DNA of 64,000 nucleotides, taken from positions 1,736,001-1,800,000 of the forward strand of contig NZ_CP073588.1 in the NCBI RefSeq assembly GCF_021560015.1, read 5' to 3'. How positions within the stretch are numbered: position 1 is the stretch's first letter; each line of letters begins with the position of its first letter. The position numbers and the translations under genes are program-made. Below, in pieces: positions 35,171-38,308 of this stretch. Under the pieces are notes generated by a model. The model saw only the letters and a list, made by a program, of their open reading frames with translations, searched no databases and was not told the origin of the DNA. This DNA is from Shewanella vesiculosa (lineage in GTDB: Bacteria > Pseudomonadota > Gammaproteobacteria > Enterobacterales > Shewanellaceae).

Positions 35171-35563
35171 ATGCGCAAAAGTAAATTAACCCTGTTATTG
35201 GTTTCAGCATTATTGACTTCGGGCATGTCTGCCGGTGTTATGGCTGAAGATACTTTAACCGCTAGTACTCAAAATACTCCTGTTTCAGATGCTGCAACAC
35301 AATTAGCTAGTTCTCTTGTTGCCGCTAATGGCGATGAAGCATTGATAATCGAAGCATTAAAAGCTGCTGTTGCTGCAGGTTTGAGTTCTGATGACATCTT
35401 AGCTATTGCGATTGCTAACGGGATTGACCCTGCTATTGTTGCAGCCAATCTTGAAGATGCACAAACTGCTGGCGGCGGTGCATTTGGTGCGGCTCCAGCT
35501 CCAGGTGGCCCAGGCTTCGGTGGCGGCTCAGGCGGCGGCGCTGGAACAATATCTAGCAACTAA
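35171..35563 (+). CDS. Small secreted protein with Gly-rich tail
   Basis: The 130-residue product has a clear signal peptide (KLTLLLVSALLTSGMSAGVMA, cut near 25), an Ala-rich amphipathic middle (DEALIIEALKAAVAAGLSSD, about 54-73) with a second DDILAIAIANGIDPAIV unit, and a C-terminal Gly/Pro/Ala-rich tail (GGGAFGAAPAPGGPGFGGG). I do not recognise a domain. It starts three bases after the lapD stop and is followed by a strong terminator, so it is the third gene of a lapG-lapD operon. A surface or periplasmic partner of that module is only inference. Confidence 0.75.
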   Translation: MRKSKLTLLLVSALLTSGMSAGVMAEDTLTASTQNTPVSDAATQLASSLVAANGDEALIIEALKAAVAAGLSSDDILAIAIANGIDPAIVAANLEDAQTAGGGAFGAAPAPGGPGFGGGSGGGAGTISSN

Positions 35564-35632
35564 TTTTTTAACGCGGTTTCGTTTTATTACAGTTTACATA
35601 ACTACAAAACGAATTTGCTTTAAAACAAAAAA

Positions 35633-35657
35633 ACAGCGCAATTTGCGCTGTTTTTTT
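35633..35657 (+). terminator. Rho-independent terminator of the lapG-lapD operon
   Basis: ACAGCGCAA / TTGCGCTGT form a perfect stem followed by seven T, about 70 bases after the small-protein stop. The A-run before the stem may let it work on the opposite strand too. Confidence 0.85.
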
Positions 35658-35791
35658 ATGCCTAAAATTCAATATATTCTTTAGCCGCCATACAGAATCA
35701 CTATCCAATCGTCATTCCCGAGATCTGTTGTATGGTTCTAGCTGTTGATTAGATTTGGGTTCCTAGGTTCTAGGTTTCGCCCCACCCGCTC

Positions 35792-35897
35792 GTCATCCCA
35801 GAGATCTGTTATCAGGGATCCAGGTGTTGCTGTTGATCTTGTGTAAAAGCAAAAAACCAACACCTGGATTCCGGCTCAAAAGCATTGCCGGAATGAC
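35792..35897 (+). repeat. Palindromic element, full copy
   Basis: Left arm hairpin GTCATCCCAGAG(...)CAGGGATCC, then CAGGTGT, a loop with GTAAAAGC, then ACACCTGG and the right arm ATTCCGG(...)CCGGAATGAC. The outer ends (GTCAT / ATGAC) and the inner blocks are inverted repeats, so single strands could fold as a two-armed cloverleaf. A tandem partner follows after about 88 bases. Confidence 0.8.
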
Positions 35898-35985
35898 GGA
35901 GTAGTGGGCATTGTTTGTATGAAGTAGTGGTAAGCATTATCTACTAGCGTTGTATTGGGCATGTAACTGTAAGCCCTACCCGCAC

Positions 35986-36090
35986 GTCATCCCTGAGTGC
36001 TTGTATCAGGGATCCAGGTGTTTCTGTTGACCTTGTGTAAAAGCAAAAATCTACACCTGGATTCCGGCTCAAAAACATTGCCGGAATGAC
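35986..36090 (+). repeat. Palindromic element, full copy
   Basis: Same organisation as the copy at 35792: GTCATCCCTGAG(...)CAGGGATCC, CAGGTGT, loop with GTAAAAGC, ACACCTGG, CCGG(...)CCGGAATGAC. Near-identical to the copy at 57364-57470 in its left arm. Confidence 0.8.
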
Positions 36091-36200
36091 GGATATAGAA
36101 ACATTATCAGAATGACAAATAGATGGAGCTTTGTCTCGCCGCCGTCATCCTCGAATGCTTTAATTGAGGATCCAGCTCTTATCTTGGCTTTACTTCAGTC

Positions 36201-36652
36201 GTCATCCCCGAGATCTGTTATCGGGGATCCATTCTTTGCCTTGTTGATGGTAAAAGCTGATTGATTTATATTTCGAGATCATCCCAACGTGGATTAAACT
36301 TCTCAATTAATTGAATGTTCCATTCTCTCTTCCACTTTTTAAGCTGTTTCTCTCTTGTTATAGCATTATAAATATCATCAAAAACTTCGTAGTAGACTAA
36401 TAAATTAATTGAATATTTTTTAGTAAAGCCATCAGACAAGCCATTTTTATGCTCCCAATCTCGTCTGATTAAATCAGACGTCACTCCAATATAGAGTGTG
36501 CCATTAGGCCGATTAGCCATGATGTAAATATATGATTGCTTATCCATAAGCGTGTACCTGACTAAATGATAAATAAAATATAGCATCTAGTTAGATGGGT
36601 GCCTGTAAAAGCTACAAACTGGATTCCGGCTTAAAAGCATTACCGGAATGAC
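36201..36652. mobile_element. Palindromic element carrying a GIY-YIG gene in its loop
   Basis: The left arm GTCATCCCCGAG(...)CGGGGATCC begins at 36201 and the right arm GGATTCCGG(...)CCGGAATGAC ends at 36652, the same arms as the empty copies nearby. Instead of a 30-40 base loop they enclose about 350 bases with one gene. GTAAAAGCT, present once in empty copies as GTAAAAGC, occurs on both sides of the gene (36250-36258 and 36605-36613). Mobility is inferred, not shown. Confidence 0.55.
36266..36547 (-). CDS. Small GIY-YIG nuclease family protein
   Basis: ATG at 36547 gives 93 residues (MDKQSYIYIMANRPNG...); 13 more upstream codons are open but lack family support. The GIY-YIG core is visible as YIYIMA followed by TLYIGVTSDLIRR, with the catalytic-type Tyr and Arg, then EHKNG, the conserved AITREKQLKKWKR block and the C-terminal NPRWDDL. 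It is of the single-domain YhbQ/UPF0213-like class, whose cellular role is poorly known. It has no partner gene; the neighbours are palindromic repeats on both sides, and the gene sits exactly inside one of them. Confidence 0.85.
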   Translation of the reverse strand: MDKQSYIYIMANRPNGTLYIGVTSDLIRRDWEHKNGLSDGFTKKYSINLLVYYEVFDDIYNAITREKQLKKWKREWNIQLIEKFNPRWDDLEI

Positions 36653-36705
36653 GGATAAACAAACATTATCAGAATCACGAATAGAGGAAACTTCGCCTCA
36701 CCGCC

Positions 36706-36814
36706 GTCATCCTCGAATGCTTTTATCGGGGGATCCAGCTGTTGTCTTGGCTTTACTTCAACTCAGTCATCCTCAAATGCCAAGATTCCGGCTCAAAAGC
36801 GTTACCGGAATGAC
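36706..36814 (+). repeat. Palindromic element, rearranged copy
   Basis: A left arm GTCATCCTCGAATGC(...)GGGGGATCCAGCTG is followed by a second partial arm start (GTCATCCTC) and then directly by the right arm GATTCCGG(...)CCGGAATGAC. It looks like two copies fused by a deletion. Confidence 0.6.
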
Positions 36815-36901
36815 GGAGTAGTGGGCGTTGTTTGTATGAAGTAGTGGTAAGCATCACCTACTAGCGTTGTATTGGCCATGTAACTATAAGCCTACCCGCA
36901 C

Positions 36902-37007
36902 GTCATCACTGAGATCTGTTATCCGAGAGCTAGGTGTTGCTGTTGATCTTACTTAAAAGCGTAAAAGCTAACACCTGGATTCCGGCTCAAAAGCATACCG
37001 GAATGAC
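36902..37007 (+). repeat. Palindromic element, full copy
   Basis: Left arm degenerate (GTCATCACTGAG, then ATCCGAGAGC), loop with TTAAAAGCGTAAAAGC, then ACACCTGG and intact right arm CCGG(...)CCGGAATGAC. Followed by the shared spacer up to 37087. Confidence 0.7.
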
Positions 37008-37123
37008 GGAGTAGTGGGCGTTGTTTGTATGAAGTAGTGGTAAGCATTACCTACTAGCGTTGTATTGGGCATGTAACTGTAAGCACCACCCGCTCGTCAT
37101 CCCTGAATGCTTGTATAATTTTA

Positions 37124-38308
37124 TTACAGCAATGCTTGTTCTATGTCTGCTATCAAGTCTTCTACATTTTCTAATCCGACGGATATACGCAGTAGGTTGT
37201 CGGTGATACCGGCACTGAGTCTGGCCTCTGGAGTGTATGGTGAGTGGGTCATAGATGCTGGGTGTTGAATTAGGGATTCTGCATCACCTAAACTGACTGC
37301 TATGGTAAAGAGCTCGAGACGATTAACAAAGTTGATCGCGTCTTGCTTATTGCCTTTGAGTTCGAATGCAATCACCCCTCCGGCGCGTTTCATTTGCTTA
37401 CCGATAAAACCATGACCTTGATGATGACTTAGCCCTGGATAAAAAACTTGGCTAAATTGAGGATGTTTATCTAAATATTCAGCTAGCACTTCAGCATTGT
37501 CACAGTGGCGAGTTAATCGCACATCTAAGGTTTTTAAGCCGCGTAAAATAAGCCAAGCATCGTGTGGAGAGATCACGCCACCAAAGTCTTTGAGTATTTC
37601 ATATTTCAGTCGGTGCATGTGCTCTGCGTTACCACACACAATACCGGCAATAACATCACCATGGCCATTTAAGTACTTGGTAGCACTGTGGATCACCATG
37701 TCGATCCCCATGGCTAAAGGTTGTTGCAATAAGGGCGTCATAAAGGTGTTATCGACTATTGATACCAATTTATGGACTTTAGCAACCTTGGCGATTGCAG
37801 CAAGATCAAATACTTGTAAATGTGGGTTCACTGGGGTTTCACAAAATATCACTTTGGTATTGGGCATAATAGCCGCTTCAATTGCTGCAATATCAGTAAA
37901 ATCGACCAAGGTGCTGGTAATGCCTAAACGAGTCAGCTGAGTGGTCATTAACGCAAAGGTACAACCATAGACGGCTTTGGAAGCAATCAAGTGATCGCCT
38001 GCATGTAAATGGGTTAGTAGTGCACTTGATACAGCAGCCATACCAGATGCGGTTGCGGCCGCATCTTCTGCGCCTTCAAGCAACGCCATTTTGCGCTCGA
38101 GTTCTGCAGTGGTTGGATTACCTAAACGTGTATAAATATAGCCTGGTTCTTCGCCAGCAAAGCGAGCGCCGCCCTGCTCTACGTTATCAAATACAAATGT
38201 GGCTGTTTGGTAAAGTGGTGTAGTAAGTGAGCCAAAGGCTTCGCGTTGATGGCCGCCATGAATAGCTAAAGTTGCTAAATTCCATGTGTTGTTCTTGTTG
38301 TCTTGCAT
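37124..38308 (-). CDS. megL: Methionine gamma-lyase
   Basis: A PLP enzyme of the Cys/Met metabolism family that splits methionine into methanethiol, ammonia and 2-oxobutyrate. The start at 38308 has a good GGGAG ribosome site six bases upstream and gives 394 residues; 25 further upstream codons are open but unsupported. PLP lysine K211 lies in SATKYLNGHGD, and Y114 and C116 in VYGCTFAL match the tyrosine and cysteine that characterise true methionine gamma-lyases, at the same numbers as the Pseudomonas putida enzyme. Cystathionine gamma-synthases and beta-lyases lack that cysteine. Monocistronic. Confidence 0.88.
   Translation of the reverse strand: MQDNKNNTWNLATLAIHGGHQREAFGSLTTPLYQTATFVFDNVEQGGARFAGEEPGYIYTRLGNPTTAELERKMALLEGAEDAAATASGMAAVSSALLTHLHAGDHLIASKAVYGCTFALMTTQLTRLGITSTLVDFTDIAAIEAAIMPNTKVIFCETPVNPHLQVFDLAAIAKVAKVHKLVSIVDNTFMTPLLQQPLAMGIDMVIHSATKYLNGHGDVIAGIVCGNAEHMHRLKYEILKDFGGVISPHDAWLILRGLKTLDVRLTRHCDNAEVLAEYLDKHPQFSQVFYPGLSHHQGHGFIGKQMKRAGGVIAFELKGNKQDAINFVNRLELFTIAVSLGDAESLIQHPASMTHSPYTPEARLSAGITDNLLRISVGLENVEDLIADIEQALL

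Follow-up and report, generated by a model that had tools for sequence, protein, structure and literature searches.

Why does a small nuclease gene sit exactly inside a palindromic repeat of a Shewanella genome, among neighbouring copies of the repeat that lack it? The locus lies in a stretch of 64,000 nucleotides (the window) from Shewanella vesiculosa, whose genome comprises 4.78 Mb in a single contig. It occupies a palindrome-rich interval of about 1.6 kb between the end of a 130-codon gene (35563) and the end of a minus-strand gene (37124) that we take, from its own sequence, to encode a cystathionine-type enzyme. A first-pass annotation had described a GIY-YIG gene of 93 codons nested between intact palindrome arms at 36201-36652, with gene-less copies of the palindrome nearby. 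Sequence and Pfam bear out the nested gene, and three complete gene-less copies were found beside the filled one. The locus comprises the following features:

35792-35897, unstranded: gene-less copy, a REPIN-like arm pair (from sequence and folding)
35986-36090, unstranded: gene-less copy (from sequence and folding)
36201-36652, minus strand: filled element of 452 bp, consisting of hairpin arm, GIY-YIG gene and hairpin arm (from sequence and hairpin classification)
36201-36231, plus strand: arm downstream of the gene, with GTC, a stem beginning ATCCCCGA (10 bp including one mismatch), a 5-nt loop and a CCA tail
36250-36258, plus strand: GTAAAAGCT, copy 1 of a 9-bp direct repeat
36266-36547, minus strand: GIY-YIG nuclease gene, 93 codons plus stop (from ORF, Pfam and homologue alignment)
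36605-36613, plus strand: GTAAAAGCT, copy 2 of the 9-bp direct repeat
36620-36652, minus strand: arm upstream of the gene, with GTC, an 8-bp stem beginning ATTCCGGT (one mismatch allowed), a longer loop and a CCAG tail
36902-37007, unstranded: gene-less copy (from sequence)

The filled element begins with GTCATCCCC at 36201 and finishes with CCGGAATGAC at 36652. Its nuclease reading frame covers 36266-36586 on the minus strand, yielding 106 amino acids from an upstream in-frame ATG at 36586 and 93 from the ATG at 36547. According to a Pfam GIY-YIG search, the filled copy is single in its own genome; the two other matches fall in a 119-codon frame and in a 608-codon frame, the latter probably UvrC as judged by its length. 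Folded as single-stranded DNA, the gene-less copies at 35792-35897 and 35986-36090 gave z scores of -4.40 and -4.46. The pattern of one arm type was found at 19 genome sites with up to 3 mismatches compared to 0 for the reversed pattern, showing that the arm repeats exceed chance. Rfam returned 0 matches at gathering score within 35560-37130. A 119-nt stretch of spacer and arm sequence recurs at 35888-36006, 36805-36923 and 36998-37116 with 74-95% identity, so part of the window cluster is probably a local duplication. Elsewhere in the genome (L167-L169, L172, L177, L179, L181), a composite repeat, GGCCTGCGGCCACTAACGTCGTGG and variants, replaces the second arm.

The 9-bp direct repeat flanking the gene, to which the first-pass annotation had drawn attention, is real at both of its positions, but is absent from the other 13 Shewanella filled copies compared. 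AGCTTTTAC stands on both sides of the gene in the window copy alone among the 14; one of the other 13 has an unrelated shared 9-mer, and the remainder share 5-8 nt. Besides its positions at 36250 and 36605, the word has one further occurrence in a gene-less copy (36961) and one far from the cluster (9640). A target-site duplication was rejected on the grounds that it appears in 1 of 14 filled copies and that the repeat sits inside the arms. As the word is also part of gene-less loops, gene conversion between copies is the simpler source.

The sole Pfam match of the encoded protein is GIY-YIG (PF01541, E 7e-14), and the hallmarks of RAYT proteins, the HUH motif and the catalytic tyrosine, are accordingly absent from its Pfam profile. 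In an alignment of 59 homologues, eleven positions are the same in every sequence; these include Y8, Y19, R29, H33 and E54, which we take from general knowledge of the GIY-YIG fold to be the catalytic set. A structure model with a mean pLDDT of 93 found its best structural match in UPF0213 (PDB 1zg2, E 4e-4), followed by Slx1 entries (E at least 0.03), while 1ywl (E 0.007) and 1zg2 (E 0.05) were also weak sequence matches; the protein has the same fold as these UPF0213-type GIY-YIG proteins. The nuclease gene is under purifying selection, with dN/dS values of 0.02-0.14 among four Shewanella copies and dS above 1 in 4 of the 6 pairs.

To which class of repeats do the arms belong? In the available text of Di Nocera et al. 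(2013, PMC3733652), CGTC-tagged REPs are defined by an unpaired CGTC (or TGTC/CCTC) end, an 8-9 bp stem starting from AT, a 4-5 nt loop (others in some families) and a short CCA tail, and are described as dispersed, often in head-to-head pairs. On sequence grounds, the window arms fit most of this definition. Both have CGTC and the CCA tail, and their stems of 8 and 10 bp start with AT and contain at most one mismatch; one arm fits the loop length only if its stem is taken as the mismatched 10-bp one, while the loop of the other measures 11-13 nt. Of the 90 arms at the 45 nested homologous loci described below, 74 have the CCA tail and 74 a stem beginning with AT; the base before GTC is C in 54 and T in 31 (85/90 together), and many homologue arms fit the 4-5 nt loop. 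These repeats are likewise dispersed and often laid out as head-to-head pairs, and in the window's own genome the second arm type lies within about 90 nt in 4 of the 17 arms listed. The same text counts Neisseria dRS3 and Rickettsia RPE-4/RPE-6 among the CGTC REPs and lists A. lipoferum and S. meliloti, both of which are nuclease carriers here (PMC3733652). It knows CGTC REPs from five phyla, reports them as apparently without a dedicated transposase, leaves the mover open and considers that CGTC REPtrons may have vanished early; 'GIY' is not mentioned in the text available (Di Nocera et al. 2013, PMC3733652). What distinguishes the present loci from the published ones is the GIY-YIG gene inside or between the arms and, for one window arm, the loop exceeding 4-5 nt.

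Homologues were sought in one genome per species across 84,980 species, and the best 80 of at least 558 confirmed relatives were used, which biases the sample to close relatives. Hosts among the relatives listed include several proteobacterial classes, Campylobacterota-type genera, Planctomycetes, Patescibacteria-type MAGs, Bacteroidota and Anaerolineae, and phage records contained 0 homologues at E 1e-5. With further relatives added, the starting set comprised 110 loci. Of these, 9 with less than 45% identity were set aside as a negative set, and L051 and L052 were removed because they duplicate L022 and L023; an inverted-repeat score was computed for the other 99. These 99 and 11 of 16 plasmid-record loci (L186, L188, L189, L191 and L192 being excluded as near-duplicates) form the 110 loci that were classified by their hairpins. 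Some records of the plasmid collection are as large as chromosomes, among them a 2.17 Mb N. gonorrhoeae 'plasmid' (L183). A Planktothrix plasmid gene copy (L197) has an MmeI-type restriction gene on one side and a DISARM drmA gene on the other, and the R. tumorigenes gene region (L187) matches 304 plasmid records (219 Rhizobium, 74 Sinorhizobium), many via a stretch downstream of the gene, which points to a large repeat family there.

At the level of single loci, this GIY-YIG family and CGTC REPs are strongly associated. The nearest hairpins were nested around the gene in 45 of 110 loci, forming a compact unit with a median of 377 bp; of 1154 random placements made within these loci, 6 were nested. 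The first-pass annotation had expected homologues to lie between such arms; they often do, and rare flanking, looked for as counter-evidence, did not occur. Hairpins in opposite orientation were found at 12 loci, in the same direction at 20, on one side at 27 and not at all at 6, so that 104 of 110 loci have a hairpin to one or both sides, against 323 of 1154 random placements (831 had none). The detector needs GTC; visual inspection of L196, scored as having none, shows CTC-type hairpins to either side. An inverted-repeat score of at least 14 was reached by 51 of 99 loci and 10 of 3960 controls, using a score that overlooks loci with unlike stems in the two arms, the window's own (score 8) included. 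Unlike the window family, nine distant GIY-YIG genes of a conserved relative across Shewanella had no adjoining hairpin on either side (0/9; random placements 28%).

The two arms of a locus also belong together. Arm similarity was analysed in 180 loci (171 after duplicate removal), and the left and right arm of the same locus had a mean similarity of 0.79 (68/113 at 0.8 or above), compared to 0.51 for arms across genomes (2229/12616). In multi-copy genomes, a locus's own left-right similarity was 0.87 versus 0.63 between copies, the own arm being the best match in 14 of 22 cases counted before duplicate removal. Paralogues of one genome can bear unlike arm types, as seen in G456, G358 and G397 among others. 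Protein and arm similarity correlate with a Mantel r of 0.34, as high in 0 of 500 permutations; this overall value may reflect organism phylogeny, and the within-genome test of paralogue arms tracking protein lineage was not significant (19/30, p 0.20). These data bear on the simplest alternative, that small genes and REPs both gather in intergenic space and the gene is a chance passenger. Such a coincidence would agree with REPs lying mostly downstream of genes, as stated in the available text of Di Nocera et al. (2013, PMC3733652), but we consider it very improbable in view of the little or no nesting seen for random placements and for the same-genus GIY-YIG relative, and of arms that match each other within one locus.

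Across whole genomes, a clear association is seen in Shewanella and a moderate one in the phylum as a whole. The genome-level pattern represents one hairpin type, and the carrier cut-off of E 1e-18 was picked after viewing the search results, scoring G352 (about 5e-15) and G428 (about 6e-15) as negative. With more than two hairpins demanded of every genome, 11 of 13 carriers and 9 of 74 non-carriers were positive among 87 Shewanella genomes (p 4e-7, kinship ignored). For the Pseudomonadota and for one well-sampled family, two hairpins per nuclease match were subtracted in carriers only, while any hairpin scores in the others. Hairpins beyond the own arms were thereby found in 34 of 87 carriers compared to 58 of 262 others among 349 Pseudomonadota (p 0.003, kinship ignored), and in 12 of 17 compared to 22 of 57 in the family (p 0.03, kinship ignored). 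Including the own arms inflates these counts to 52/87 versus 58/262, 16/17 versus 22/57 in the family and 12/13 versus 16/74 in Shewanella; requiring at least 5 hairpins in every Pseudomonadota genome gave 37/87 versus 27/262, a result that is partly inflated by the own arms. All of 24 carrier genomes match the hairpin pattern, although the matches in G147 and G165 may be their own arms alone, and 22 of them contain it more than twice, with 0 for the reversed control. By informal inspection, the copies listed for G155, G157, G159, G162 and G167 are mainly of the nuclease-flanking arm type; in G160, 1 of 7 hairpins listed is of the locus's own arm type. Among genomes that lack the nuclease, 58 of the 262 from Pseudomonadota and 16 of the 74 from Shewanella have hairpins. 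In one genome, 16 of the 17 hairpins listed (36 in total) lie within about 35 kb around the nuclease gene (G010:C1:932330-966821).

Orthologous loci with and without the gene, a comparison suggested at the outset, exist in Shewanella, Azospirillum and Sphingobium. The gene occupies matching flanks in the window, G085, G055 and S. basaltis; in G044, the same neighbours are separated by a 235-bp gap that contains no gene and no palindrome. In Azospirillum lipoferum, the gene and its REPs lie between sufB and sufC and are missing from the three relatives compared. Aligned Sphingobium plasmids have, at the same place, the filled element in four cases, a single hairpin in two and neither in two, and at the gene site of G020 and G035, Shewanella G051 shows repeat matches and no gene match. 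A search for clean filled/empty junctions or a target duplication found approximate junctions alone. One process that would produce filled and empty palindromes is homing, in which the nuclease cuts existing palindromes and its gene is copied into their loops from a filled copy, the REPs being older and spread otherwise. Homing would account for the Sphingobium plasmids with a hairpin or a filled element, for the G051 site and for the several REP-bearing genomes without the gene. The Sphingobium solo hairpin is, however, equally explained by deletion between the arms, no such palindrome was seen at the empty Azospirillum sites or the G044 site, and filled copies have no insertion point or duplication in common, which makes homing quite improbable in our estimation.

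Filled and gene-less copies resemble each other beyond the hairpins themselves. In G085, an S. frigidimarina-like genome, they share, besides the arms, AGGTGTTG within one arm and AAACACCT within the second, and the Sphingobium filled and gene-less copies have CCCGCT and GTAGCGGG in common; the window's filled copy has diverged at the inner bases common to the G085 copies. Inner bases common to filled and gene-less copies fit an internal deletion. Between G003 and G057 the nucleases are 92% identical, and the only match of their flanks covers 45 residues and lies on opposite sides; between G081 and G082 the identity is 90%, with no flank match. Such pairs fit movement and also rearrangement. 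Paralogues of one genome are mostly 68-76% identical (higher in G329, G219, G434 and one G213 pair), hence recent transposition is not generally evident. Of the initial proposal that the filled copy is the nuclease-bearing parent of a non-autonomous family, the arm flanking and the inner bases shared in Shewanella and Sphingobium lend support, whereas the 9-bp word as a target duplication had to be given up.

The nuclease might also act on CGTC REPs without mobilising them, by trimming or policing repeat-bearing single strands, for instance incoming transformation DNA, and simply reside amid its own targets. A 2025 report in Nature Communications is said to describe meningococcal Ssn, a GIY-YIG single-strand nuclease that cuts at a Neisseria repeat (NTS) and modulates transformation. 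Like the protein of the filled element, Ssn is a small single-domain GIY-YIG protein, and the N. gonorrhoeae homologue found here (53% identity) lies among dRS3-like hairpins, between elements and not nested. We judge a non-mobilising role rather unlikely, since it leaves unexplained the compact unit of the 45 nested loci, the inner bases common to gene-less and filled copies and the 90-92% identical nucleases in non-matching flanks. A search of mainly openly accessible literature found nothing that links GIY-YIG with extragenic palindromic repeats or dRS3, or that is relevant to Ssn; given the 2025 Ssn report, the novelty of the link between GIY-YIG and CGTC REPs is provisional.

On balance, we lean towards the filled element being the parent, still with its gene, of a CGTC-REP family, with a nuclease that would cut the arms and repair or copying that would spread the unit. 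We infer that the small GIY-YIG nuclease would recognise GTC-hairpin-CCA arms, probably in the form of hairpins of single-stranded DNA, and cut there, whereupon host repair or copying may spread the unit. Internal deletion of the gene would leave REPIN-like pairs that could be mobilised in trans, and recombination between arms would leave solo hairpins. GIY-YIG enzymes hydrolyse DNA, so host functions would have to finish any transposition. By analogy, the window system is best read as a GIY-YIG counterpart of RAYT/REPIN pairs, in which an enzyme gene is likewise flanked by a paired hairpin type that has many non-autonomous copies. RAYTs, however, are HUH tyrosine transposases associated with GTAG REPs in the available text of PMC3733652, whereas here a GIY-YIG protein accompanies CGTC REPs.

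Our results suggest that this GIY-YIG family is a partner enzyme for a widespread class of repeats described in print as lacking one, and a nuclease candidate linked in cis allows a direct test of what moves CGTC REPs. Should the enzyme mobilise the repeats, they would represent a REP system built on a nuclease fold other than that of the RAYTs. More tentatively, and with the balance somewhat against it, the GIY-YIG CGTC elements of about 350-450 bp may be autonomous mobile elements in which a hydrolytic nuclease acts via single-stranded hairpins, and may have given rise to the CGTC REP families of different bacterial phyla. If true, they would be among the smallest autonomous mobile elements proposed, with a nuclease in place of a transposase.
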